Below, one piece after another: positions 1,518-35,411 of a stretch of 38,735 nucleotides of DNA. Source of the DNA: Mitosporidium daphniae (lineage: Eukaryota; Microsporidia); NCBI RefSeq assembly GCF_000760515.2, contig NW_013546401.1, positions 1 to 38,735 on the forward strand, read 5' to 3'. The translations under genes were made by a program, and so were the position numbers. Below the pieces are notes generated by a model. That model worked only from the letters and a program-made list of their open reading frames with translations. It was not told the DNA's origin and did no database searches. The first letter of the stretch is position 1, and every line of letters begins with the position of its first letter.

Positions 1518-2526
1518 ATGCAAGCATTGAAAGCCGAATTAGAGGCGAAAAAGGCATCACTTGAATATACACGCTCAGAATCACGTAAATTGTACGTTGC
1601 AAGAAGAGATATTGAAAAAGAGCGCGTGAACTCGTATCTATCTGCACATGAGGAGCGCCAATTGGTCAAAAAGAGATGCATTCCCCCACAAGAGACTGTT
1701 CCGTGTCAGCCTATTTCTTCTGCAGAAAAAAAGGAAGCATTACCCCACCAAGCTTCTTACAGCAAAGCTGCAACGATAAAGATAAACACAATTGAAAATT
1801 CAGAGGAGAACCGATTTTCCACGCTTCTTTTCGAGCATCAAGACACACTTTCTCTCGATCTCAAGATGAACAAAGAACACGGCATGACATCACACGAGTT
1901 CCTTTTCCTATTTTTCAAGTTTGTTCATTTTAATTTCTCACATTAGAAAATTGCTACTAGAATGGGAAAAGGCCGAGATCCGGCAAGAACCAACCAACGG
2001 ACAGGTGCTCCATCCTCAACTGCCCCACGAGCATAAGCCCAGGGCATTTCCGGAAAATCAAATGGCCCTGAAGGGCGTCGAAACGAAAATGGACCAGCCT
2101 GAATCTTTGCATCTGAAGGTGATTAGCGAATTGCAGCCTGTTGTCAGGAACAAGCAGTTTCTTTCCGAAATTTTTACCCAAACCAGCCAATATTTGATGC
2201 CGTTTTTTGTGCTTTTGCAAGAACAAAATATTCCGGACTCGGTGATTGAACACCTTATGGAGATTGTCGGCTTTTTGCAGACGAAACAATATGTCAAGGC
2301 AAACGACGCCTATATACGCCTCTCAATAGGTAATGCGCCATGGCCTATTGGCGTAACCATGGTTTGTATACATGAGCGTTCAGCTCGGGAGCGTATTCAC
2401 TCGAATCAGGTAGCACATGTGCTAAACGATGAGCGTCAACGCAAGTGGATCCAGTCCATCAAGCGGTTGATTTCCTTTTGCCAACGCGCATACCCACCTG
2501 CCCGTATTACGCAGGCTCTAGGCTAG
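1518..2526 (+). CDS. PRP18: Pre-mRNA-splicing factor Prp18 (one 28-nt intron)
   Basis: Second-step splicing factor that works with Slu7 at the spliceosome catalytic centre. Exons 1518-1918 and 1947-2526 join to 326 aa. The C-terminal half is the Prp18 helical domain: YVKANDAYIRLSIGNAPWPI, then GVTMVCIHERSARERI and VAHVLNDERQRKWIQSIKRL match the family almost residue for residue. The N-terminus is a basic coiled-coil region (ALKAELEAKKASLEYTRSES). The SFM/PRP4-like motif found in most Prp18 proteins between these parts is not visible, so the protein looks shortened in the middle. The intron (GTTTGT...TTAG) ends exactly at the TAG that would otherwise stop exon 1. An alternative donor at about 1898 (GTTCCT) would remove seven more residues, so that junction is the least certain point. 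A splicing factor fits an intron-dense genome. Confidence 0.93.
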
Positions 2527-2641
2527 CTATAAATACCGCAGGGTCTCGTCTCATTTGGAAATCGGGGGGGGGTTTAATTTCCATTTCGCTAGCGTTCTGA
2601 CTCCGCCCTTTGATTTGTTTTGGTCTAGTTGTATGATTAGT

Positions 2642-3658
2642 TTATTGAAGGCTCCTTGGTTTAAGCCAGCGCGCCTGTATGAATGTGCGCTCGAGATCGA
2701 GGCCATCTCTCGCGTTCACGGTCCGCCGCGTGACGTACCTGTTTTCCAGGACTACAAATCCTGCTCCTGAAAAAAGCGCCTTCGCGTACTCTGCCAATAA
2801 ATAGTAAATGGGCATGTCAAATGGGATCGGTGAAGGGTATGGTTAATGGTAAAGTTAGCCCGAATCACGGGTGATGATAGGAAACATAAAAAGTAAAGCG
2901 TGGAGGCCTACCTGCAGAAAAGAAGAAGGAAAGCGTCCCATCCTGCCGTACAAAAGTATGTTCGTCAATTTTTCTGTCCTCTTTAAAGCGGAGCTGTGCC
3001 AAATCATTAACTGCATAATCGCGGAAGAAGAGCACACTACCTGGCCGGAGGAGCTAGGATTCAATGCAGAAAGGCTTACCTCAAAGGCATTCCGGACCAC
3101 TAGATTATGGCTGGCTGGAGGTACTGCTGAAAGCATAAAGACGAGCGTCGCGAGTGTAAAGCTTGGATGCATCTTGGTCGTGTCAAGTAGGGAGTAAAAA
3201 TTCTTCCATGTTGGGGCTGGACTGGCATCCAAGCACAGGCCTTGCATGCCAAAATTACAGTTAATGTCTTGATTCTTGTGCATGGGAAGGCCAAGGGCCA
3301 ATTGACCCTGAGAGATATCTGTGGCAAAATCAAAAGCGGCCACCCAAAGCCGATGTGCAAACCGCTCATATTCGGGTGATTCCATGATCAGCTTTACTGC
3401 CTCTGTGGATATCTCGACACCATAGCAACGCAGCAATGGAAACTCTCTAAGTAACGGAAAAAGCAGATTCCCTACACCACACCCAATCTCAAGCAGGAAA
3501 TGACCTTCCCCCTCTCCAGACAACTCTGCAAATTCAGTACCGAGCCAGTGACGATCACGGAAAAAGTGGTCCTTGTTACGACGATAAAAGAGATTCCAGC
3601 TCTTCTCACCACACTCAGAAAGGTATTTGGACGTCCAAAATGGCGGTATCACCATCAC
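2642..3658 (-). CDS. tRNA N3-methylcytidine methyltransferase, METTL2/6/8 (Trm140/141) family
   Basis: SAM-dependent methyltransferase of the family that makes m3C32 in tRNA anticodon loops. Exons (complement) 3658-3080, 3053-2912 and 2790-2642 give 289 aa. Family signatures in order: WNLFYRRNKDHFFRDRHWL near residue 22-40, SAM-binding motif LEIGCGVGNLLFPLL at about 56, FMLSAVPP near 173, then LLRPGSVLFFRDYAVNDLAQ and FVRQDGTLSFFFSA after the first intron, and the C-terminal VVLENRYVTRRTVNARDGL. Intron 1 is 26 nt; intron 2 is 121 nt, the longest in the window. There is an unusual insertion of roughly 35-40 residues between the Rossmann strand FDFATDI and the VLSAV-type motif. Family assignment is firm; METTL6 versus METTL2/8 cannot be decided. 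It converges on prp18 with 115 bp between stop codons. Confidence 0.9.
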
Positions 3659-3857
3659 TTAAATGTACAAAATTTATTCAAACTTCGGACACCTCTGATA
3701 AGTGCGCATCCTTCAATTGAGCCGCGGCTATCGACCAAAAATCGGTGAGCCAAAGATCAGCATACCAAGGCACACGCTAATGATAGATGGCAAAAGGAAA
3801 TTTCAATTTCGATGCCACGACCACCGGGAGTCTGACTTGGTGACCATCAGGGTTAGG

Positions 3858-6800
3858 TCAGAATTCAGGATGCCATCGTGGGTCCACGCCAGAAATATCT
3901 TGACAGGCCTTCGATGCCTGTGAAATGAGCTCGACGATAGGTGCATAAAGTGAGACTGGCAGTGGTTGCTTGACCTTGGATTCGCTCTGGACGGTAGCTT
4001 GGGTTCCGGCTGCTGTTGATCCCCCATCCTGAATGTCTTCTTGGGAAAAGACGACCTGGCTCACGTAAGCAGAGACATGTGCAGAAATGATGTCCTTTTC
4101 TTTCTCGCAAGCAAGAACTTTGATGCGTTCTAAAGCCCCTCGTGCATGAATAGAGGGACCACGAACCCGTTGCTCCATCGTTGGCTGGCTACCAGCTAGA
4201 AGATCAAAGAGATCGCTAATTTCTTCAGAGCGATGGGAAAGTTCATCCGCAAGGGCATGCACGGATGGCACAAAGAGCCCATCTACAAAAACACGGCCCA
4301 AGAATGTTTGCAGTGCAGGTCCCATACGGAACACAAGGGGAGCATGCAGCACACGCATACCCGGTGCTTGGGTATCATAACGCAGCGATGAAGGGTCAAT
4401 TTTGATAGCACAAGCAGAGTTGGGCTGCGTCGACATTTCTTGCGAGGCATTTGGAGCCCGTTCAGTGGCTGATAAAGCCAGTTCATGTGCCGTAGCGTCA
4501 AGACGCTCAAACAGCGCAGCGCCAATCCAGGAGAGCCGACCGTGCGCCAAAGGGCCTAACCCAATTGAGGCTAAATCGCGCTGCCGTACGCTTCCCAGGA
4601 TGCTCCATCCCGTGATCAGAGCAGCCCATTGTAGTGCAAACGACTTGCGATAAAGCCAATAGTCTTGAGAATTGGCCAGCCGTGCAGCTACGAATGCTGC
4701 CAGTACTGAGGAACACGCCATCTGTATGTCCTGTTCTTTAGCCGGCGTTTGGGGCTTCATTGGCCCTGCCGTTGCAATTTCTACTTCCGCCGGCTGAGCA
4801 GCGGCGCCGGTGGTCGTATTTAAGCATTGAGCCATGGAGAGCGGGTCTACAATGATGTCTGGAGATGCAAGAACAACCATGCAGGATCCATTTCCATTCA
4901 GAGCATCAGAGGCAATTAGTGGCAACAAAGATGAATTCCACGTGAGCAGCGGAGATGCCCGTTGGCGAACCAGACGCCCCTTTGAGGCAACTCCGCCCAG
5001 CATCCAAAGAAGCCGCGATGCTGTGGCCGCACCAAGTATGGCATTGACCCTTTCGGTGTCATTAAAAATGGTAATAGCCCGCACACTGCCATCACTAAGA
5101 TATACCACAAGCCCATAATGACCATCTGTTTGGCGCAGGATGGCACCAAAGGAGTCGATTTTTGTAGATGATGCCCCAGTATCGCCTTTGCGTGGTAATA
5201 CCAAACGCTGACCAGGTAATTCGAGCTCATCATCCATTGGGAGACGTGGGAACGAAGAAAGCCAACGCGAAGTTACATGCACAGGGCTCACTACCACATT
5301 GCACCGTTTCTTTTTTGAGGGCAGGTGATTGTTTTTCTTTGCCGACATTAGGCTGTTTTGCACTTCCCCCAAAAAGATGATCATTGTCTCCGTGGCCAAA
5401 GGATGGACTGCCCGTAGCATAGACAATAGCGCTGCCATTTCGTCTCCATTAGAATCCAAAGCTTTGCTTCGAATACGTGCTGAAAGCGGATAAAAGAGAA
5501 GATTCGGGAAAAGGCGTCCAATGCGCTGCAATAAGCTTCGTAGCCTGGAGCCTAGCTCCATGGTTGAGCTAGAGCCCGGAGAATCTCGCAAGTCATCAAG
5601 CATTTCTTCCAGAAACGGTAGCCACGGAGCCAAAGGAAGCTCTGCCAAATACAGATCAAAAATGCCTGCAAGCTCTGGCGCCATTCGCAACATCTTCAAA
5701 ATCATAGAAGCAAGTAACAAAGCTTGACTGTGCGTGCACCCATTGCTCAGTCCAGAGCCATAGCGGAGATCCTCAGCATCTTCATCGCAAAAAGAGCGCT
5801 CATGCGAAGATGAGTTTGTCCCGTTTGGATCAGAAGAAGAGGCAGATGCCACAGAAGATGATGCTGTTGAAGGATCATTGCGTCTTTGGTTGGCATTTTG
5901 GTGATGAGACGCAGAAGAGGAAGAGGATGTTCCAAGAATCATTGCCTGCAAGTAACAGTGAATAGCATGCATTGCAAATGTTTGTGCGTTAGGCTCCTCC
6001 GGATACGGTGTCAATGCAGTAAATGAGGTCAACGTCGACGGAGAGGTTGTCCCCAGTGAAGTGGCGGATGTGATATTCAGCGAACATGGTGGTGGTTTTG
6101 CTAGGCCAGGAGATCTTCCAGCGGTCAATGAGGATTCATCTGCGGAGCACGTGCCAGCAGCTTCCACGCCCAAATCATGATTTTCTTCTTCTTTTTTGGC
6201 GATAAATGCACGGAAGCGGCGGCGATTATAATGACCCCAGGCAGCCCAGGCGCGTCCGTGGTTGATGTCCAGCTGTACTGCTTGCGAGTGAACCTTGTTT
6301 GCTTCTTCAATTCCGGTGAGGTTAAGAGCCTCCAAAAAACGGCCTTTAAGGGAAAAAAAGTCCGACTTTTGAGAGGCGCCAAAGTATGCCAAATTTGTAG
6401 AGTTGATAATCTCAAGCCCAGCTACAAGCAACAACGTTCCCGGAGACGCACAGCATGCCGTGGAACTGGATTTGGCTGCGCCTTGGTCATCCGCACATCC
6501 TTCGGTGGCTTGTGCCGTGCTGCTGTTGGTGTCCGTATTTGCACTTGTAGCCCCTCCACTAGCACCACCAAACGTAGCAGCAGCGTGAAGTGGTACGGCC
6601 GCTGTCAGCCATGGTGCTGACAGCGGATCGTAAAATGCATCAAGATAGCATTGTGCTTGCTCGCTCAACTTCCAAAAAGCATCTTGAATCTCGATGTTGG
6701 GCAGCGTGTAAATCTTATTGAGCAGCTGTACGCAAATATCTGGAAGACGATGGCGACGAGCTACAGTCGCAAAGCGATTGATCAGCCATGCGCTTTCATG

Positions 6801-9800
6801 ATAACCGCGATAAATCAGGGTTCCTCCAGAAGATGCAGCAGAAGAGGCCGAAGATGGGGCCGTAGATGGGGCGTTCATATTGCCAGGACCTGCGGCTCCA
6901 CCCATTATCACCATGTTGTCTAGTTCCGTAACGGTGGCTGCAAAGAGCCCATTGATGGCCGAAAAGAGAGACTGCCTCCAAGCAGCCAGCTCAGACCATG
7001 CCCCAATGGAATCATAATGGATGGAGGGAAGCCGTTCCCGCCAGGTGCCCAAGATTCCTCTGAGCTCTTGCACCATAGTCAATTGGGGCTGGAGCGGTGA
7101 TGCATTGGAAAGGTGAAGATTGCCCGCTCCACCGCCTCCAGCACCAAGGAAAAGTCCGGCAGCTTCCTGCACTTCCACAAAAAGCTGAAAGAGAATTGAT
7201 AGCGAATCATTTTGAGATGAGCCGATAAGTGGCCATGGCATGGCGGCCCATTGTGCAAGAGTCACCTGGAAACCTTCCTCGATAAGGCGGCCCAACTCAG
7301 CGACACGCCGACCAGAGAGGACTGTTGATCCAGAGGATGCGTTAGCTCCTGGCCCATGGATCCCACCAGAAAGGCCAGCACCAGCGCTGGTACCAGTACC
7401 GCCCCCGCCGATATTTCCAACAACTCCCGTGATGATTTGATGTAAGTGAAGCAGAGCATCGTAAAAAAGACGCTTAGGTGTTGGGGCATCCGCAACAAGC
7501 TCTAGTGCCGCGCGCACAGCGGCTTGATCTTTAGAGGTGCTCCAGTCCAACAAGCGCCAAGATGCATCAAGTGAGAGGTCGATGTCATTGTCTACCTTTG
7601 CAAGTTCAACCAAAACGTCCCATTGTTGCAGCCGCCGCGCAGCAGCGATCCATCGCTCCTGCCATTGTTGCATTTCATCCCCGCCTTCTCCGAATGAATG
7701 GGAAGAGGCATTTTCAGACTTTTTTGCATCACAAGATGAACCTTTCCGGGCACCATAAGCATCATAATAAAAGGAAGATCCATCACCGCTAGGGCAAGCG
7801 GTACTATCACACGGATCTTTCATGATGTTGACGATGTTTCCAACTTCGTTCTTGACAAGTGGTTCTGTGGCAAGACGTCCTGCTCGCGCAACAGCCTGCG
7901 CAGCCTCCAAAACTACTTGTGCACCTTCAAGATATTCGGCCTGTTCCAGCGAGCTCGCAAGAATGGTCTGCCCGTGGCGTGCCTGGCATCTCCGTGCCCC
8001 GAATGCACCATCACTCTCTCCCATTGCTTCATATAAATAGCCGAGAGCCTCATAATTTTGTGAAGCCCTACACATGGTCTCAAGAGAAAGTACAGGTGCA
8101 AACCAATTGAAGTTTTTGGCAAGGTACCGTAGCAGCATCTCACTGAGCCCAAACTGTACCATGATTTGGGGATGATGTAATGCGAGAGCTGAAATAGCCT
8201 CCAACAGCGTACATGCCGGTAGCGTGTGGTTTCGCGGGGACCAAGAAGTGGAAGAAGAGGAGCTAAGCAAATGATATGGCCGTGATAGATTGTATGAGAG
8301 ATCAGCCCCTATGGTTGAGAGCAATATCATGTCGGTTCCTTCGCGTTCGCGGTTTTGAGAAGCAGCTATGGCGATTTCGCCAAAACATCGTACCCAGCAT
8401 ACATGAGCCCAAGCTCCATCTACACGGGCTAGGGCTGAAATCGGACCTTGAAATTGGGAAAGTAAAGGTCCTCGAGCACGTTGTATGAGGGCCAAAGCTT
8501 CGTGGATCCAATATGAGGTCGCAATGGCCTCCCAGTTCTGAACGCCAAGAATATAACGCAGGGCTTTAAAGGGACCCTCCAGTGATGGTTGCGCAAATTC
8601 AAGAGAAAGATAAATCACCTCAATTAGCTGATCATACAGCTCAGGCTCGCCTCGACATTCTACCATCAAAGATAAAAAGTCTTTCTGTAGTTGAAAGGTT
8701 ACTTCTGAATGTGCAAATGACGAGCAGGGCATCGCTTCAGGGGTAGATCGGGAAGGAAGATCCATTGATACATGGGACTTTCCATACACCAGACAAAGTA
8801 GCTGAACCATAGCCCGGCGCACTTTTCGGATACTTCCGAGCCGAATCTTGGCTAGAAGTAGGCCCAAATCACCCCAATGGTGAAGATTATGATCACCATC
8901 TTGGCCATTTGGGTGATCATCACGGCCGGCTCCAAAGTGACCTTCCATGGCCTGATGGCCCGAATCAGAGGAATTTTCGCGGAGCTTCGCGTAACAAGAG
9001 GCAGCCATAAAAAGCAAGTCCATTTTCTCTTTCAACATGAAAGTTCCCCCGTTGAGCCAGTGAAAAATTCTCACCAGAATATCTTCGATTACGGCAAGAG
9101 GATAAAGCATCGGATGCGAGGTAATCATTCCGATCACGCCAAGGAATTTTTGTCGCTCCTCGCTAGATGAGACCAAGTTAGATGCCAAAGCATCCCTTTC
9201 AATGATATCAAAAATGAGTATCATTGCTAAGCCACGAATGGTGGAGAGTATCTCTTGAGGACCGCCCATTAAAATATCCTTTTCCGTGATAATGGCGGTA
9301 CAGAAAGCAACCTCAGAAGCAGAGGCCGGGGCTCCCGGCGCAAGTGCTTCGCGTGCCAGATCTGACAGCATGCTAATTAGCACCGAAATAGGAAGCAATG
9401 TTGGAGGTGCAGCTGCGATGGAGGCGGTAGATTTCGCCTGAAAGTCATTGTTATCTTCGTGAGCGTACAACACTTCACCAGCTATTGTCGGCAAGGCGGC
9501 AGTTGTACGTTTTGAAGAAACAGCGCCAAAGTTCGACCAAATAAAGAGCAAGACAGGCAGCAGTGAAGGAAGCGAAACTATGAGTGCCGGATTGAAATCA
9601 GAGGGAACAACATCCAGTCTTTCCACAACTTGACCGTTTTTCTTATAAAATAAAAGACCAGAAAGCGACAGTGAAATACGAAGCGAGAGCACAGATGAAA
9701 GAAGAGGAGAAGATGTCATTGCAGACGAGAATGAGTTTGCTCCCCCACTAACACCATGTTGAAGCAGCGATGTTGGGTATGAAAAAAAGAACCCAGGAAA

Positions 9801-12800
9801 AAGCGAAGGGATACGCTCCATAATTATCTTCACATATCTTTCTCGCTCTTCCTTGGCATTTACGCAAAATATCATTTCAAGCAAAAAGAGGGCATTAAGA
9901 ATCGATCGTAAAGGCTTAGGCAATTCCGAAAACGATGTCGCAAAAGCTTGAGTAGCCATGGGAGGTTCGGCAGACGAGGATGCCTGAGCTGCGTTTGCAG
10001 GCAGTGGGATCATGGACGCAGTTTGTGCTGGAGAGGATTGGAAAATCTCATCAACCAAATGCCATGGCAAGGAGAGTCCAGCTTCTGCAGCAGACATAGC
10101 CAGTTTTAATGCATATGCATCATACTCCAGGCAAGGCATTGATGATACCGATGCTGCCAAAGAGGCACCACCACCATTACACACCGTTGATGAGGGGTTC
10201 ACCGGTGGCGTAAAGGTAGGCTTTGCCATGAGAGAAGAAGAACACAGGGTATACCCTTGGCCAGAAAGGATGATTCGAAAAAGGGTTTCAGAGGTGCCCT
10301 CCCAAACACCAGGCCCAAGGATCGGTATCAAAGGCAAAGGTTGAGCCGCCTGGGCGACGCGAGTCCTTTTTCGCACGTGATGCTGCTTGGACGAAGATGT
10401 TGTTGATACTGGAGAAGGAGTCGTTGCAGATGAGTTGTTAATGGAAAGAGTTATAATGCAATCGATAATTAAGAGCTGGCCACTTTTCATAAGATCAGAA
10501 ATAGGTGATTGTGGCTGCGAAAGTAGCGAGCTTATCACTTCCAATGCCGAGTACCACCACCAACAAGGAGCTTGCCCCATTGCAGCCGTGATCTGCAGGG
10601 GAGATATGGTTTTTATTGGCGATGGGACACCTGCTGTTGAATTTTCTATCTTTGCTGATGAAGGAATCCCCAAAAAGGGAGGAAACCCTGGAGCTTTGTA
10701 TGAAAACGAGGTTGGTATCACGCGAGCTTGATTTGAGCAGGCGGTCATTGAAGCAAGAGCGCTCCAAACAATTCCGTGTTGTTGAGAAAGTGACGCCATA
10801 ACATGCTCGGATCCAGATATTGAGCCAAGGCCTTTTGTCATAGGTGGGCCATAGCCTGCAAGTACATGCAGAATGGCGGAAAGTACGCGTTCGAGCGACA
10901 TTGATAACGCTATTGTCAGGATCTCTATCACTGCAAATAGACGTCGAGAATCAACAATAGTGCTGTTTGAGCCACCAAAATCTAGCAATACACGGAAAGA
11001 AGACTCGAGTTCTCCATTTGCACCTACTTCATTTGGATGAGATGCATAAAGAAGCACCTGAGCCGCAGCGAGATTGTACCGATCCTCGTCACCGTCGGTA
11101 GGAAGTTCCTTGGCAACAGTAGTAATGGTAGTGTGGCACCACTCGTTTAAAGACTCCGAATTGAGACGAACCGACATTTTCGCGATGGCAAAGAGAAGGG
11201 CAGAAGAGCAGAACCCCCGCTTTTCGATGATTTTTACCAATTTTTCTTGTGAAACCTTGTCAAGTTCTTTCAAATCATTGATCCAAGAAACAAGAAAGGC
11301 CTCCCGAGCAGCCCAATTAGGAGGGTCATCACAGGGATCAACGGCATCGATAAGGCTGCAAATAAAGTTAAGATCACACTGTATACGCTGCTCAAGAACC
11401 TGTGGAAATGAATCCACCAATGCAGCTAGTAGAGGTAGCAGCAGAGGTGCATTTTCGTTGCAATGAAGCACACCATCGCTAGAGGACACCTTCGCTATAT
11501 CAGATGCCTTAGGAGCTGTGGCGACCAGCAGGGCGGTACCTGCTTGCCAAAGAACATCTTCGAGTGAAGTGGCAAAGGCATCTCCAAAACGAAGCAGTAT
11601 CCGCTCTCCTCCCTTGCGGGGCTTAACCTTATGTCTTTGGATCATCCGCACAATGAGGGTTGAGACACTCTCTGCAAGCTGCGGGCTCAGAAGCTTGCAT
11701 ACTGAAGAGGATCCGGAAGCGGAGGGATTCTTGCAAGACAATGGATCTTTGTCTTGTTGAAGATGCCCAGAAAGAGTACCTCTTTGTAAAGAAAGAAGCA
11801 TGGAGGCAACGACTTCGGAAAAATTTGCATTGGCCCCTGGGCTGTCCCTCCAGCTTTGATTGTTCTCTCCTAGATCGAGACGACTGGCCAGAAGCTCCCA
11901 AGTTCCTGGAGAAAGCACAATGTCCCGTGCCTCACTGTGCATCGCCATGAGCTCACAAAAAAGCCCAACAATACGATCATCCTTCAGTCGTTCTCCCCCA
12001 ACAATCACTTCAATGGTAACCGAAAGGTGTTTGCAAAGATAGCGCAGTACGGGCCTCCTGAAAGGCGAGGCTCTTGTCCTGCGAACCATTTCTTCAAGTG
12101 AGCACAGAGCGACCAGCGTCTCTTCTAGAAATACTGATGAGGTTGGTGGAAGCAGATGGAAGACATCCAAAATGGCTACGATGATGCCGATTTCTGGCGC
12201 CAAGATTTCTGGAGGCCCAGAAGGAGACGCCGCCTTGGCAGCTTCAGCCCATTGCCTGAGATGCTCTAGCAACTTGCGACCAATTTCGGCTTTAAAATAA
12301 GAAGTGAGAAGCTCAAGTAAGCGGCCGAGACCCTCTAGCCCAGGTATGGTTAACCGCTTATAATCGGAGAGGTTCATCAACACGGGACGAAGACCGTGCT
12401 GCATTAGCTCTTTCGGTAGCTTGTGCTGCATGGCTATGACGAGAGCAAGACCTGTTTTACTTGCGCCCACTATATCAGGATTTCGAGCATAAAGAGACTT
12501 GAAAAAGATGGACACAATTCGATTCCTGAGTGCCAAATGGTTTCCCGGTGCTGAAAAAGTAGGCGAGCCCATGGCTGCCGTAAGGAGCCGGATGCAAGCT
12601 ATGCGAAGCCGGGCCCCGAACGGGCCATTGCTTCCCTTGGCCACTGCTGATGTGACAGAAGGTGAGGAGGCAATCTGTGACCCTGAAGGAGTGGTGGCGC
12701 TCGGTGCAGGCGATGAAGAGGTTGTGTTTGAGGCTGCATGTGCTGGACCTGCACTTGAAGGTGTAGCAAGCGATGCTGAGACCGAATTTACTCCCATTGA

Positions 12801-15800
12801 AATTGAAGATTGATCTTCAATGGTATCAGCCATGCCCACACAATCTGTAACCAAAGCAAGAAAAGATGGGGAAAATTCCAAAAAAGACGGATCTTTTTTC
12901 ATGACAAAAGCTATCGCTTCAATTATTCCGATCTGATGAGAAATAGGAAGCAAAGAGATGTCTCTTCCTTCTGGACCGCCAAGCCACTCTTGCTCAATGA
13001 TTGTAGATCGGATGGGCTCAAGTAGCTTACAAAGAGCCCGACCTGCAGCAGATGATACCACAGGAACGGGTGGGGTAGTTATTCCGGCACTTGGAATAGA
13101 AGGCCGTGCATCTTGTGTGGGGACCGATGAATTGAGTGTTTGCGATGATGTAATCGCAAGCGCTGGCTGCGCAGCGGGAGCTGAAGATACCGGTATATGG
13201 GGTAAAGCACCAAGAGCCCCAGACTTTGCAGCAATAACATCCCCATCCTGCTTTTCAAATTTCTTAGCCAGCTGTTCAAGCATCCCTTGTGCCATGGCCC
13301 TATTTTTTTCCAGAGGAGATGCAAGCTCCTGCGTCAAAACCCCAAGCAACCCTAAACAAGGAGTGTCGTTCCTTTCCTCAATAAGAACAAGCAAAAGGGA
13401 ATCAAGGGCACGCTCGGGCGCTATCTGTAGCGAGCAAATGCCAACCAAATGCTGACTAGCCAACTCAAGGGACTTGAAAAGGGCTTCGGCACAAAAAGTG
13501 AGAGTGGTATCTGCAACTGAAAACCTTTTCTTTTTGGAGAATATTTCGCGTAACAGGTCAGATCCAGAGAGACGGGCATAGATGGACTTTTCTCGGAAAA
13601 GCCCGCATATTCGAAATAGGATGTCCTCGACGCCATGCTGGAACTCCTGTTGAGACAATTGCTTAAAGGCAGGATGATTTTGATAACATGTCCCGCGCAA
13701 AACTCGAAGCAAAAGAGAACACGCACAAATTCTCAGCTGTGGATTTTCAGAACATAAATACTCGTCAAAAAAAATATCAATAATATCGCTACTGCGCTCG
13801 CTATCCCTCATAGCATCGGCAAGCCCCAGTTCGAGGTTTTCTCTGATTTGATGCAAGAACGAGGCCGAAGGGAGATGATGATGATGATGATGATGCTTGT
13901 CGTCCATCTTTTGGAAATCATCGAAAGTTTTATCGAGAATTACGGGGTCATTAACGCAAAAGAAATGCCCGTCCACGGTACTAGTGTGGTCCGACTCGTC
14001 GTGATTAAACCAAGAAAAGTAGGCTAGATATCTGATCTGGATGCCGATCAGCTCTTTAGTATGCCTTAAGCGCTTTTCCTCCAAATAGGAACGAGTGATA
14101 CGAGGAAGATAATGAGCAGGTGATGAGGGAGATGCGCTATCTCGCTTCTTGAACGACTGCTGTGATTCTGGCAGCCACAAGAGCTCATTCCACTGTGAAA
14201 TAAGCCGATGCAAAAAAGCCTGCTCGTGCTGAGCCTCTAAGGGCACCTGCAATGATGAAGAAAGATGCGTCTTGAAATTTAGTTGCCGTATGGGTCTCTT
14301 ATTACGTCCTGCAAGCTTTCCAAGGATCCTAAGCGCAGTATGAGCAAATTGGGAAGGATATGGGAGAGGTCTGCAATGAGCCCAAAGAGCCTCAAGCAAC
14401 TCTGGCATGACACTGGACAAAATGGGATCGAGAAAATCCTGCGTCAAATTATCAATACAAAGCTCCAGAGTCCGCAAGCCTTGAGACAGCAATTCAGGCG
14501 TCATAAACGTTGAAGACGATGAGGAAGATGAGGAGGAGGATGACGAGCCACTCGAGATGTTAGACGTAGGTGCTGACGCTTGTGAGGCGGCAGATGTTGC
14601 TGATAATGGTAGAGTAAAGCCGCCTTGATTCTGTGACGCCGTACCAGAGGCGGATGGCATCATAATCATCATTGACATTGAAGGTGAGCTTATAACTTTT
14701 AACGAATACACAAGTGGCTTCATCAAAAGTGAAAGATATGGAAGCAGCACAGAAAGACGCACAGGAATGGTAAGCGCCAGCTCGACAACCAAATCCTTCA
14801 GCAAATCCGTGGGTTGTGGGTATGAAGGCGTTAGCGGTGTGTTTGATTCATGGCTACCTCTGGAAAATGTCTGAAGAATCTCAATGGAGTGAAGCAGGGC
14901 ATTGAGTGTCTCAAGAATTGTTGGCAGAATAGGAAGAATTTCACGATAAAGAATTTCAAAGCGGCCACCCCCAATGGCTCGAAAAAGAGTTCTAAGAAGC
15001 AAAAGGGCATGAAAAGGCTCCTGTGACACTTTGGAAGAACCGCAACGTAAACACGAAAGGATCAGTTCAGGAAGAAAAGCTGCCCAAACACCCTCGATTT
15101 CTTCTGGATAAGCCCCCAAAGCCATCAACATTAATTTCATTATACGCTGCAGACGGGCTGCACTATCAATATTCATCACTTGGGATAGCTCATTGCCGCC
15201 GAAAAGATTCTTGGAAAGCCATCGAAGCAAATGAAGAAGTGTGATTTTGGCAACCTCCGGCCCTCCAGGTCCAACCAAAAAAACTTGAAGAAGTGCGGAG
15301 AGTGCAGGCACAGATGTAATTGCATTGTATATGTTTGGGCAGTTGGAGGAAATGATGTCCGAAAAAACAGAAACCTCCAGCAAAATGAAAATCTGCGCAA
15401 TCTGCTCCACCATGTCCTTTTCCTCTTGTGCGAGCTGGCTTTGCAAAAGAGACGCATCATATGCCAATCCTTTGGCAAAAAAATTGATCGTCTCACACGA
15501 AAGCGAAGAGGAAAGACCAGAAGAAGGCTCTTGGATGCATTTTTGATCGGACGCACAAAGACGCACCAATGTGGCTACAAGATCCCCAAAAAGACGGACA
15601 AACCAAATCGACTCCTCATGAAGGATACCTCGAACCGAAAAGATTGCGGAAGACAAGGGGGCAGGTGATGGTTGAAGCGAGCGAAAGGCGAAAAAGATCA
15701 CTTTAAGGCCTGTAACTAGTGCACGAAACAGAATTCTAAAATTTTCTATGCCAGTTTCTTCAGAACCGAAAACAGGCGTTTCCGAAAGCATATGAATGGC

Positions 15801-17351
15801 CCTACAGTACGAGTAAAATATTCTCCAATAGGCCTCTTTCCTATTGGCCATTGTAAGTTGCGGGTGGGAAGCAAGAGGAAGCCCGACCACAAAGTGTTCC
15901 GCAATCGTACTTAGCAGCCTAGCCGCCACGGCCCTGACGCCAAAAGAAAGACCGGAGCGGTTATGCTCGGACTCTAGCAAGCTTACAAATGCCGGTATCA
16001 AAGTCCAATTGAAAAGAGAAACCGGGATTTCCGTTCTAAAATGGACTATAAAATCAGCAAATGTGGTAATAATAATCGGTCGCAACGTACGCGCCGCTGT
16101 TGATTGCAGAGAAGATGAACAAACGCCCTCCTCGTCGATGGAAAAATTGAACAAATGACATTTTGATGGGTCAAGAAATTCGCCCACTTTTGCTCCAAGA
16201 TGGGGCCTAACATCCTGCGTTAGCATTAAATGGCGAAGAGCAATCAGCACTTCCCTTCTTAGCCCATATGAATCTTCTGGAATGATTCCAGAAAGGCTCA
16301 TCAGTAATTTTGGAAAAAATGGTGCAAATGACTTCATGGATATTGGAATGGCCCTGGCCATAAACGTTAGCAGGGACAAAATCTTTCATTAACGAAATAA
16401 AAGTACCTTAACGTGGATAGAAATTACCTCTAAAGGTAAGCTACTATCATCCAAAGTAGTCAACTGTCGATCCAACAGTGTGGTACGCGAAAATTCGACA
16501 AATTGCATCATTAAAGGACCGTTAACAAACAAGTCGGCCATGGGTTTCTTGTAAATCTGGAACAGCACCACGATGATCAGCGGACATTCGGTGGCAACTT
16601 TTAAAGAATTTGATGCCGATGGTTGGTGAGATGGAATGCAATGCGAAGCGCTAGAAGATCCCATTGAATGCGAATGTATCCAACTAAATAGATCCTTTAC
16701 AAATGAAAGGAAGAAAGAAATCAACTGCGACAAAGTAACCGAACTAGGCGCTGCGGATGGTGGAATCTGTGCCTGCGGTACCGGTGTCGTCTCCAGCTCA
16801 TGCTGCACCTTGGAGAAAAGGGTCTTGTGCCAATCAACAAAGATCTTTAATATGGATAGCCCGGTGCGCTCACTACAACCGGGGCTAGAGAGCCATGTTA
16901 GAAGCAGAGAGATGATAGTTTTTGGCTCCAGCACTTCAGTCCGACGCAATGCTGAAAGAAGACGAAGTGCATCGAAAACATTGTCGTCCCTGTGAGAAGA
17001 AGAGAAGGGGGAGCAAAATGAAGAGGCGCTTGTTGAGGGTGTTTCTGTATTTTGTGCCAAAGACAATTCCAAGACATTTTTCATTAACACCGCTTTAATT
17101 AATTGCGAAGCCTTTTGCATTAAGGGGTCAAAAACGCAGCAGGAAGATGGAATGATAAGGAAATATTCATCTACAAGCACATTTATCGATTCTACGGCAA
17201 TTATGACAAAAATGGTACCGGAAAATTTGGCATGATCTAGGTTTGCTTCGACTTGCTCTGCTAAGGACTCAAGAAGCGATGCAAGCTTGTTTTGATGCTG
17301 CTGATAGTACAATGAGGATGCCGAGAATTTGCTAATTTCCTCATTGAGCAT
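3858..17351 (-). CDS. TRA1: Tra1/TRRAP, giant pseudokinase scaffold of SAGA and NuA4 (one 24-nt intron)
   Basis: Activator-binding scaffold of histone acetyltransferase complexes. Exons 17351-16407 and 16382-3858 (complement) join in phase 0 through a 24-nt intron to about 4,489 aa, longer than yeast (about 3,740) or human (about 3,860) homologues. Layout: N-terminal HEAT-type helices; a very long alpha-solenoid; FAT domain around residues 3000-3750 (LSLETMCRASQNYEALGYLY); PI3K-like pseudokinase from about 4030 (RLPMDDELELPGQRLVLPRK); and a FATC tail ending SGVDPRWHPEF, close to the NPAWHPWL-type end of TRRAP. The usual catalytic Asp-x4-Asn and DFG residues are not evident, as expected for this non-catalytic PIKK. 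Extra length is partly low complexity: a Ser run, a seven-His run, and Gly/Ser/Ala-rich inserts. The start at 17351 lies just below an A/T-only box. The 12.5-kb uninterrupted second exon contrasts with the intron-dense neighbours. Confidence 0.95.
13874..13895 (+). repeat. (GAT)7 microsatellite coding poly-His in Tra1
   Basis: Seven GAT repeats on the plus strand, read as CAT codons on the minus strand. They give a run of His after DDK in an insert of the Tra1 solenoid. Likely a length-variable, unstructured insertion. Confidence 0.9.
14517..14550 (+). repeat. GAN-type triplet run coding poly-Ser in Tra1
   Basis: Imperfect GAT/GAG/GAC/GAA triplets on the plus strand, read on the minus strand as mixed Ser codons. 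They produce a run of more than ten Ser within a Ser/Ala-rich loop of Tra1. The mixed codons make it less slippery than a pure microsatellite. Confidence 0.85.
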
Positions 17352-17519
17352 TATTTGAAATTAAATTTTAATTTTAATTGTTCAAGTCTTCCATGAAAGA
17401 TAAGGGCCCCCATTGCACACGGGTGTTATCGAAGCAAAATGTTATTATTGTTCATCAGCAACATGCACAAAGTGCAATTATTTAAAAATTTATTTAAAAA
17501 GGCCTTATTTTTGTCGTTG

Positions 17520-31067: not shown

Positions 31068-31669
31068 TTAAGCAGCGGTGCTTGGACGGCAACCAGCAAA
31101 TATGGGTCGGAAAGAACGATTTGTGCTGTGGGGAACAGGAAACTTGAGTTTGGAGTCAATCAACTGTTTGATATAAGGACGACGAAGATCGGCAGCCTTG
31201 ACCTCTTCAATGCGGATGATGTGGATTGAAGAGAAGCGGGCGCGATGGCGGGATGCCATATCTTGGTAGCAAGATGCTATGGCATCGGTGCGAGAGCACT
31301 CTCTATATTCCTTATACATATTATGAGTTCCAGAGCGAGAGTCGTATCTGATCCAAATGCCATAGTTTTTAACGGTTGATGGCTTCTTTTCAAAGACTTC
31401 CTTAATAGAAACAATATCTCCAGCAGAGCTTTTGACCTTCTTTAGCCTTTTAACAAAGTACCAGAATCTGCTTTTGGCAACAACCTTGTTTGGAGCAAAT
31501 ATCTGCAACTTGTACAGAGGGGGCTCTGGCTCCTCCTTTGAAGGGAGCTTTCTTCCAATCACTTCATATTCATGGATCTATAAAATTAGCATTTACATCA
31601 ACATGTTAGAGGATGGATGAAAGAGATACACAACCACAAGATATTGAGGGAGTTCCTTACTCTGGACAT
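31068..31669 (-). CDS. RPL20: Ribosomal protein eL20 (L18a), 83-nt first intron
   Basis: 60S subunit protein. Exon 1 (31669-31661) is ATG plus two codons; an 83-nt intron (31660-31578) follows, then exon 2 (31577-31068); 172 aa. The spliced start MSRIHEYEVIGRKLP matches the (E/F)KEYQVIGRRLP start of the family. Further matches: PPLYKLQIFAPNKVVAKSRF, WYFVKRLKKVKSSAGDIV, VKNYGIWIRYDSRSGTHNMY, SIHIIRIEEVKAADLRRPYI and KFPVPHS. The intron is three times the local norm, has a canonical GTAAGG donor and TGCTAAT branch-like sequence, and sits immediately after the start codon, a placement common in fungal ribosomal protein genes. Upstream lies an A/T-only box of about 40 bp. Confidence 0.96.
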
Positions 31670-31724: not shown

Positions 31725-34700
31725 TTAAAGCATTTTGTACAAAGATTGCTGGTCACCATAATGCCCCGATGATCGCTGAGCTGAAGGGTGCCACTTTTCT
31801 AATTCCAAATGGAAGTGTGCATCAAGCAGCTCTTTAAGAAAATCGTCCCATTGCTTAAAAAACTCTTCTAGCGTAATGTTTTGTATGTTTGGTGGAGCCT
31901 CGAATTCGGTGCTTGAGTTTAGAAAACACTGTTCTCCAAAATAAACGGCAACCTCCTCCCACAAGGTGTTAAAATTTTCAAACAAGTCCCACAAGTCTGT
32001 AAGTTTTTGGGATTTTTCAGCTGCCCATATGTTGATGGCAGCAAGAAATTGACTTACCATCTCACCACTTTCACCGGTGTCCGGCCCTTCTTTGATCTTC
32101 TCGATGCTAAGGTTCAATTCGCGTATGGATTCGCGAAGAAAAGTAGAATCGGTGCCTCTGATTTCCGAAACTAAGCTACGAATTTTCTTGAGCTCAGCTA
32201 TGGAAGAGTCGTTTAACGACTCGGCAATGAAATGTAGCAGGGTTTTTTGTCCGCTATCGGATCGAAATGCAGAAAGCCTAGAAAGGGAGGAGATTCTGAC
32301 CCCCTTTGTTGCACCTCTCATCAAGATTTGCTGTTTTTGAGATTTTGAGCGCCCAAACTCGAGTGTTGCCAATTGACAGCCATCCAAGATATTCTTCATC
32401 AACAACTTGATCGTTGAAGATTTCTTCAAAACAAGCAGTGCATTTTTCAACAGCGACAATAGCCGAATGATTTCGGAGCATTCCGAATCAAATTGTCTCT
32501 GCATAATCATTGCATCTACAACCCAATTTAGCGCAGGCGCGGAGCTCGTTGCTATCATAAAAGATTCTGCAGGAGAGCCTGTGTTGCACTTTTGAGTGTT
32601 AGCTGCCAGCTGGAAAATGCTTTTTTCTTCAGGTAGTGGAAGCAAGGGTTTTAAAGCAAGAAGATCATCCAAAGTGATGCTGCAGGTATTTGAATATAGT
32701 TCTTTCACCAAATTCTCAGCACCCAGGAATCTTTTGTATAGCCTTGAACAGCCGATTGCGATGTTATTTGCCCTGCGAAGATCAATTAGGGACAATATTG
32801 ACGATGATGGCCTAAATTAACAAATAAAACGCATACAAAAGCGATGAATCAGAAAAGCTTTTCGTTCGATAAAGACTAGATTTCGGATTGAGCGTCAAGG
32901 ATGTGTCAATGCAGAAAAGAGCTACATTGATGAGAATGATGTTGTTACCTTCAAATGTGCCTTTGTCGAGGGAGGATTCAATGTTTAGGTTGCCTATATC
33001 TTCCCAGATGGTCCCTCTGATTTCGGAAGATGACATTCCTTTCCAATCCAAAAAGCTTTTCGAGACCTTTGGAGCCTCTAATCTCTCTTTGCCTTCTTGA
33101 AAAGCAATAGGCGACTGCTTATTCAAGGAAAAATCGCTTCCAAAAAGAGGTTTGTTCTTAGCGCCCATTTCTTTTAGAGGTGGAGGTGGAGGGGGAATGG
33201 GGGGTGTCGTCTTTGTAGGCAATGGAGGGGGTAAGGGGGGGATAGCTCCTGATGACGACGATGACGACGACGATGATGATGATGTTGTTGTTGTTGTTGC
33301 TTTTAAAGATAAAGAGTCCATAGCTGGATCGCTGGTTGAAAATTGTAGCAAAGAGGGGTTTGCATTTGATTGACGGCAGATTGCAAATGAAGGTAGGGGC
33401 GGGGGCATCGGTGGATCTTTTAATGTGACACTTGAAGCACATTTTTCTCCAAAAGAAAGGGCGTCTGCCTGGTTATGTGATTGATCAGTTTTCATAACAC
33501 CCTGATGGGGCTGATCGTCCTGCTTCTGGCTGCCATTTGACATCACATCACCAAAGCTATCCAAAAATGGCTTTTGACGGCAAAATTGAAACACAAGCTC
33601 ATGTGCCAAGAATAAATTGTTTCCAAAGATTTTCAGCCCTAATATTGCTATAAAGGTAAAAAAGTCTTCATTTTACCAAGCGAACGAGGGATCCCTTGGT
33701 TCACAAGAGACTCTAAAAAAATCGACTCCGGAACTATTCCTATCATCAAAGACAACGAATTGATTTCAGATTCAAGGGAGCGAGAACACACGCCACCCTC
33801 AGTGGCGATATAAGTTGGCGACGGTTCAACATCTTCGAAAACAAAATCAATCGAGAAATCTTGGCCAAGTTTGGGACCAGAGGCCTCCAAATCTTCCAAG
33901 GTAAATCTAGTCAGCTCTGAATTGATCCAATTCGTGTTGAAATACAATGAAATCAGAGTAACTGTATGGCTGTATGAGAGATGGAAATCCTTGATGGACT
34001 CGTCGGGTATGTGAAACAAACGAAAATAGATGTCTTCAGATATGGAAATAGGATCTTGAAAGTTGAAGATGATGTGGTTTGTATCTTGATAGAACACGTA
34101 TTTTCCACTTTTGGGAATCAGATCGATGAATCCACTAGTCGCGCTCGACGAATCTTCGTCTTTAACGCGGTTAGAGGCGCAATGTCCAGAAGACGACGTG
34201 CGCGGTGGATCATCGGTAGACGACGAAGAATCTTGATTTCCGCACAAACCAAAGCCGCTTGAAGACGAAAGTCCGTTAAACAATTCAGAGGAGCTAGCAA
34301 AGGTAGAGCTCTCATCAAACGAACAACGGTTTTCAAAAGAAACAGGGGTCTTTTCTTTGATTTTACAATCCGTAATGTATTCGACGTCCACCATCAAGCT
34401 GTTGTAAATCAGCCTGTCATTTTGAAAGATCGCAATGCCCGGTGAAAAGTTGCCCGACGCAAACTTGGGGATGGTATTAACGATGATTTGCCGCAATTGA
34501 ATTCTTTTTGGTTCATCACGCACAGCGGGCTTGGAAACAAAATCCTCAAAATAAAGCATTGAGCGTCCAAAAGAGGGCGATGGAGTTCCGTAAGATGCAT
34601 CGGAAGCACAAATAGCATAGGGAAAGCGGCGTTGGTGGAAAAATCGATATGAATCCAAAACGCTGTCAAAACACCCCAAATAAAACAATAAACAGGAAAT

Positions 34701-35411
34701 AAGCAGGCCTGAAATTACGAATCCAATACAATACCGGACCTGTGCAAAGCATCTTTGCAAACAATGACAACAATATTGGAGTCGTGGAGCTTCAGCCAGC
34801 AGGCCATCGCCTGTACGAACTCAAATACAGTTTGTCTCAAAGGAGGCATCCAGGACAGATCTCCCAACGCCTCTGAAAACGAGTGGGCAATCCTCGATGG
34901 GTCAAAGCAAACACAAAACTCCTCCACAAGCAGGGATGAAAGATTCCAGATAAAATAATGGCCGCCATACCTATAGTTTAAAAGCTGAATGCAACATTGC
35001 TTCCAAATATAAGCCAAGCTGCGACACGTTAAATAGGTGTCCATTTGGAATGTCAACATCATTTGCTTGATCTTCAAACGAGGAATTGTGCCCAATAATT
35101 AAAATGCGCTTGGAAATGGAAAACACATTGAATTCGGCAACGTCTTGGTCTGCATGGTGCGAAAAAGAATACCTGCCAGTAAAAAATTTAATAATCAACC
35201 CTAATACTTTGGACGAAAGCTGCTTAAACAAGGAGACCTTGCCAAATATGGAGCTCAAAAAATCTTGTTTCGACATTGTCGGTTCGTTTTTCTTTGCTTG
35301 TGATAGGGCTTGAAACTTCAAAATAGATGGCTTATGCCAGGACAAAGGATTTTCAGATTGCCCAAATACTGAGGAGGTCAGCAGTGAATCAGTGAAGGCC
35401 TCTTTATCCAT
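31725..35411 (-). CDS. PTEN-like phosphatase/C2 formin (PTEN-C2-FH1-FH2)
   Basis: Actin-nucleating formin with an N-terminal PTEN-type module. Exons (complement): 35411-34996, 34970-34735, 34708-33677, 33647-32949, 32921-32837, 32811-31725; introns 25, 26, 29, 27 and 25 nt; 1,184 aa. Residues 60-290 resemble the PTEN phosphatase fold: HYFIWNLS, DLSWMPPLRQTVFEFVQAMA, and signature loop VCKDALHRSGLLISCLLFYL (Cys210, Arg216: CX5R kept, but the usual His and Gly are Val and Leu). A C2-like region follows to about 540 (IRLFHIPD-type FRLFHIPDES, LISLYFNTNWI), interrupted by a Ser-rich insert. FH1 covers about 640-718 with three poly-Pro runs. FH2 spans about 745-1140: RGTIWEDIG, LRRANNIAIGCSRL, VRISSLSRL, KTLLHFIAESL. 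Each junction restores one continuous frame, so one polypeptide is predicted. This architecture is known from plant class II formins. Confidence 0.9.
33251..33299 (+). repeat. GAY/GTT triplet runs coding Ser and Thr tracts before FH1
   Basis: A run of GAC/GAT triplets followed by GTT triplets on the plus strand. On the coding strand these give a Thr run followed by about eleven Ser, immediately before the first long poly-Pro stretch of the formin. A trinucleotide-expansion linker. Confidence 0.85.

Follow-up and report, generated by a model that had tools for sequence, protein, structure and literature searches.

Formins that carry a protein tyrosine phosphatase (PTP) part resembling PTEN, followed by a C2 domain, FH1 and FH2, have been described in several opisthokonts. 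According to the accessible text of Pruyne 2017 (PMC5628938), this PTP-C2-FH1-FH2 order is found in the choanoflagellate S. rosetta (PTSG_07580) and in the chytrid Spizellomyces (SPPG_06651/06650, two models joined by Pruyne); for Eint_101200 of the microsporidian Encephalitozoon intestinalis, whose second formin is Eint_071180, the order was assigned from a PHYRE2 fold prediction. The available portion of Grunt 2008 (PMC2386819) describes stramenopile PTEN-formins in which the Arg of the phosphatase signature is kept and its His is lost, and lipid binding is reported, in the part of a review at hand, for moss For2A, a plant class II formin. Here, we analyzed a gene on the minus strand of contig NW_013546401.1 (38,735 nucleotides; hereafter, the window) whose predicted product has the domain order of these opisthokont PTEN-formins, with which it was compared by description. 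Judged from its sequence, it looks like a genuine further member of the reported family rather than a novel type: probably one gene for an opisthokont-type PTEN-formin, with a PTP-C2 half that most likely binds membrane and places the FH2 dimer there. The novelty that the original prediction had implied for such a protein in a fungal or microsporidian lineage was not borne out, given the examples above; the literature searched, which covered few subscription papers, held no report of a PTEN-formin for this lineage and used the term ‘PTEN-formin’ in Pruyne 2017 alone.

Six exons (416 + 236 + 1032 + 699 + 85 + 1087 nucleotides) join in a single open frame of 1184 amino acids plus stop, and the proposed succession of PTEN-like, C2, FH1 and FH2 parts in one predicted protein was confirmed by Pfam, a match to PTEN, proline tracts and the exon joins (Table 1). 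Pfam recognized FH2 at residues 752–1151 (E=4.3e-30, 105.5 bits) and PTEN_C2 (E=1.2e-8, 35.2 bits against a cut-off of 27.1), the latter interrupted by a serine-rich insert at about residues 331–418; the remaining Pfam row for the spliced protein was one domain of unknown function (E=0.15, under its cut-off), and no PTP family was reported. In a single-sequence phmmer search, human PTEN (5bug_A) matched residues 128–321 (E=2.3e-7), and auxilin (E=0.0042) and VSP were matched as well. A structural model of exon 3, covering the part after the signature loop, resembled PTEN, auxilin, tensin and VSP structures in Foldseek. Upstream of the formin ATG, an in-frame stop lies 46 codons away with no ATG in between. 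The N-terminal half of the protein is occupied by PTP-C2, and Pfam found no GBD or DID-DD before FH1, although it was equally blank on the second formin of this genome (see below) and is thus insensitive here. Searching the genome in six frames for PTEN_C2 returned only the window’s own match, a search that split exons may escape. A UBA-like domain after C2, suggested by the look of the linker, was dropped, as Pfam gave no match in three segments and the model of the homolog P0001 was of low confidence there.

Support for the exon joins came from homologs, foremost P0001, a EukProt PTEN-formin of 1123 amino acids that was the top database hit (E=3.5e-26; 24% identical across 16% of the query). 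For introns 1–3, we considered all GT-AG options of 18–79 nucleotides that leave the frame open and start within 100–160 nucleotides around the join (6, 11, and 5 options, respectively). Against P0001, the modeled intron ranked first each time: 84 (next 68) for intron 1, which tied with other options against P0019 and P0022 (56 and 41); 98 (next 78) for intron 2, which also led against two further homologs (72 and 91); and 51 (next 34) for intron 3. Since P0001 was originally retrieved using the spliced protein, this test is not entirely independent. Introns 1 and 2 fall inside the PTEN match, introns 4 and 5 inside the FH2 match; the length of intron 4 is a multiple of three, so that the frame would stay open if it were retained, and its removal yields TFEALF, which aligns with ELESLF-type motifs of other FH2s.

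Intron 3 decides between one gene and two, because it separates the C2 exon from the FH1 exon. If it were not spliced, a PTP-C2 protein stopping in frame at 33648 would adjoin a separate FH1-FH2 formin gene. P0022 gives this possibility some room, as it lends no support to the join (its score of 32 was attained in 263 of 2000 shuffles and is not significant; a rival option scores 35), and so does gene spacing: the formin stop lies 55 nucleotides from the eL20 start, so distance is uninformative on one gene versus two. We nevertheless regard two genes as very improbable, since removal of intron 3, itself of usual size, creates an ungapped 45-residue match to the one-piece P0001 (score equalled in one of 2000 shuffles), and since P0001, P0003, and P0022 are each a single predicted protein with PTEN-like and FH2 parts.

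The formin introns, at 25–29 nucleotides, are normal for this genome. An ISWI-type gene on the minus strand (window 27.5–29.4 kb) has four introns of 23–28 nucleotides and the second formin six of 24–30 nucleotides, all placed by eye; in total, 15 of the 16 introns placed in the two formins, the ISWI-type gene and eL20 measure 23–30 nucleotides, close to the shortest introns known. The eL20 intron (31578–31660, minus strand) stands apart, being 83 nucleotides long and located right after the third codon; perhaps the genome has two intron classes.

The catalytic loop was found as first described: a CX5R loop, VCKDALHR, with Cys210 and Arg216 in place and with the His and the first Gly replaced. 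It departs from HCxxGxxR, the signature of an active PTEN-type phosphatase. Relative to PTEN, P0001, and P0003, the His before the Cys is Val and the first loop Gly is Ala, while the position of PTEN’s second loop Gly is taken by His. Across 13 aligned rows, the Cys is invariant (13/13), the preceding His is present in 12 (Val in the window protein) and the CX5R Arg in four (the window protein, P0001, P0003, and PTEN); the loops read HCQNGKSR in P0001, HCQSGRTR in P0003, HCHNGKFK in P0022, and HCERGGWP or HCEKGGWP in plants. Loss of the His before the Cys should weaken the Cys nucleophile, and for this reason we favor a PTP part that is most likely catalytically weak or dead and binds lipid.

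Alternatively, PTP-C2 could be a functional phosphatase despite its unusual loop, coupling dephosphorylation of phosphoinositides (or protein) to actin assembly. The protein retains Cys210 and Arg216 together with the Ser-Gly that comes next, Asp176 in GDLSWMPP can be aligned by eye with the WPDLHAPP loop of tensin, and the relatives P0001 and P0003 have intact signatures. Moreover, the active enzyme INPP4B has the loop CKSAKDRT, with Ala at PTEN’s first-Gly position (PMC3248162, in the section available), arguing that this exchange is not fatal in itself. Set against these points are the combined replacements (His to Val, first Gly to Ala, second Gly to His), the lack of any test result here marking INPP4B as closely related, and the Lys for Arg in P0022, which reveals that loop erosion occurs in this group; on balance, we consider an active enzyme unlikely. 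Loop states differ by line, with His and Gly lost in the window protein, Arg lost in P0022 and intact signatures in P0001 and P0003. It is conceivable, if doubtful, that non-plant PTEN-formins descend from an ancestor with an active phosphatase, that this activity is being lost by separate routes in separate lines, and that the window protein is an intermediate that perhaps still hydrolyzes a phosphoinositide through an INPP4-like loop and nucleates actin at that same membrane.

For a weak or inactive PTP part, the membrane tether put forward by the original prediction is a reasonable interpretation. Together with C2, the altered PTP pocket most likely binds phosphoinositides or acidic membrane; membrane-bound PTP-C2 would place the FH2 dimer there, and FH1-FH2 would feed and elongate actin filaments at this site. 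For this formin, we infer the binding of lipid as well as the activity on actin.

As to kinship, none of the 7977 candidates scored was near-identical to the protein (top identity 25%). An FH2-only search retrieved nothing at E<=0.001 among 7992 candidates scored, probably because the divergent FH2 has few words in common with its true relatives. A profile search with three PTEN-formins led to two proteins, the Diaphanous-like formin P0021 and the PTEN-formin P0022. The latter (1629 amino acids, ENA) is divergent, with a greatly expanded segment separating the PTP-like part from FH1, and FH2 is its sole domain above the Pfam cut-off.

We built an FH2 tree of 18 rows, comprising 16 of 22 database proteins, the window protein and the second formin on contig C104; omitted were two tensins (no FH2), P0005, P0012, and P0021 (FH2 start missed by the pattern) and P0016 (from Papaver, like P0015 and P0018). 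The window protein, P0001, and P0022 split off together at 93/97 (96/96 without the C104 row) on long branches, with P0001 as sister to the window protein (85/80) and the Lagenidium protein P0003 outside the group. The C104 formin also lay outside despite sharing the genome and having a longer branch (2.76 vs 2.35), arguing against an effect of branch length or composition alone. In a PTP-C2 tree of 13 rows, including a human PTEN sequence entered by hand, the window protein grouped with P0001, P0022, and P0003 at 84/93; a grouping with P0001 and P0022 that leaves out P0003 was also not rejected (P value of the approximately unbiased test [p-AU] 0.105). In both trees, the window protein falls provisionally with non-plant PTEN-formins; a placement in plant class II is rejected by FH2 (p-AU 0.034) but not by PTP-C2 (p-AU 0.262). 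This bears on whether the gene might be a relative of plant class II formins acquired by transfer, which would share its domain order and is compatible with the PTP-C2 data alone. Given the FH2 result, a loop unlike that of the plant proteins, and introns typical of this genome, such an origin is hardly credible. Placement with the non-plant PTEN-formins is provisional because the branches are long.

Several results weigh against our overall reading. Besides P0022 at intron 3 and the PTP-C2 data on class II, the exon-3 model is of middling quality (predicted local distance difference test score 63.5) and its underlying alignment contained tensins. That Cys and Arg are both retained sits poorly with a fully inactive enzyme. 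In the FH2 data, a pairing of the window protein with the C104 formin was not rejected (p-AU 0.0855), and in the trees the non-plant branches are long, their joins were flagged as possibly false and neither clade was starred.

The window belongs to an assembly of 4.66 Mb in 147 contigs that is possibly incomplete. Its second formin, on the minus strand of contig C104 (stretch 3000–12000, at about 1961–4571 of that stretch), contains FH1 and FH2; with six introns removed, FH2 scores 178.9 bits in Pfam, which reported no other domain, and its N-terminal region, read by eye, looks Drf-type. The description of a compact, fungus-like genome gained support, short of proof, from two markers. Chitin_synth_2 matched strongly on three contigs (best pieces 523, 513, and 374 bits), a pointer only, as it also matches four of 14 prokaryote control genomes. 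Against solved ribosomes, the eL20 protein reached at most 224.9 bits, with presumably animal and fungal rows at the top; the four lowest (6zu5, 7qep, 6rm3, and 7qca), which we take to be microsporidian, gave 70–112 bits. By these scores, the genome most likely comes from a fungus-like opisthokont rather than from one of the canonical, fast-evolving microsporidia; it may belong to a relative of rozellids or of short-branch microsporidia. Searches of the genome for PI3K_C2 and for the TLC nucleotide transporter were negative but lacked a positive control and are not counted as absences. A DSPc-type phosphatase had its sole genome match at C88:13459–13611 (21.7 bits, under the cut-off), and a PIP5K-type gene and many Ras-type matches, which play no part in the argument, are also present. 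Elsewhere in the window (3858–17360, minus strand), an open reading frame of 4175 amino acids and one upstream of it appear by eye to be of Tra1/TRRAP type, with many low-complexity serine/alanine stretches that are unusual in so compact a genome.

Table 1 Features of the predicted PTEN-formin gene (window coordinates).
Feature	Position	Strand	Description and evidence
Exon 1	34996..35411	−	Residues 1-138, opening with ATG; N-terminal extension leading into PTP-like domain; in-frame model, PTEN match from residue 128
Intron 1	34971..34995	−	25 nucleotides, GTTGCA...CTATAG; splice-option scoring against homologs
Exon 2	34735..34970	−	Residues 139-217, PTP-like core to signature loop; inside PTEN match 128-321
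Signature loop VCKDALHR	34739..34762	−	Residues 209-216; Cys210 and Arg216 present
Intron 2	34709..34734	−	26 nucleotides, GTATTG...TTTCAG; splice-option scoring against homologs
Exon 3	33677..34708	−	Residues 218-561; remaining PTP-like domain, C2, first linker helices
C2 domain	33825..34505	−	About residues 286-512; modeled strands, Foldseek, Pfam
Intron 3	33648..33676	−	29 nucleotides, between C2 exon and FH1 exon; homolog match across junction
Exon 4	32949..33647	−	Residues 562-794; linker, FH1, FH2 start
FH1	33175..33414	−	Short proline tracts in the sequence (640-646, 697-705, 710-719)
Intron 4	32922..32948	−	27 nucleotides; FH2 match spans site
Exon 5	32837..32921	−	Residues 795-822, FH2
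Intron 5	32812..32836	−	25 nucleotides; FH2 match spans site
Exon 6	31725..32811	−	Most of FH2 (match to residue 1151), C-terminus, TAA stop

These results add a fungus-like genome, small in its present assembly, with two detected formins: a PTEN-type one and an apparently Drf-type one. Pruyne gives this pairing for E. intestinalis as well in the text available (PMC5628938), although the Drf assignment here was made by eye only. They also fit the model outlined there, in which the PTEN-formin is an old protein that some fungi retained and others lost. The catalytic loop has been altered in more than one way among these proteins, and PTEN-formins with differing loops could indicate whether selection keeps the phosphatase or the lipid pocket alone; the mode of decay of the loop in the window protein is of modest interest in this regard.

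Compared with its relatives, the window protein shares with PTEN, auxilin, and VSP a PTP-C2 sequence match, whereas PTEN has the loop HCxxGxxR; these three proteins and tensin are not known to carry FH1-FH2. With plant class II formins it has in common a PTEN-like domain and FH1-FH2, but the six plant rows aligned have lost the Arg and kept His and Gly, and they form a separate FH2 clade. P0001 shares a PTEN-like part followed by FH1 and FH2, plus a common stretch after C2, and differs in its intact signature (HCQNGKSRTG). Among stramenopile PTEN-formins, the oomycete protein P0003 resembles the window protein in keeping the Arg and differs in its intact His and Gly, its His being unlike the description in the accessible part of Grunt 2008. 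Finally, the grouping of the window protein with this heterokont sequence in the PTP-C2 tree is similar to the grouping of opisthokont and heterokont PTEN-formins in Fig. 6 of Pruyne (PMC5628938), as far as its accessible text describes it.
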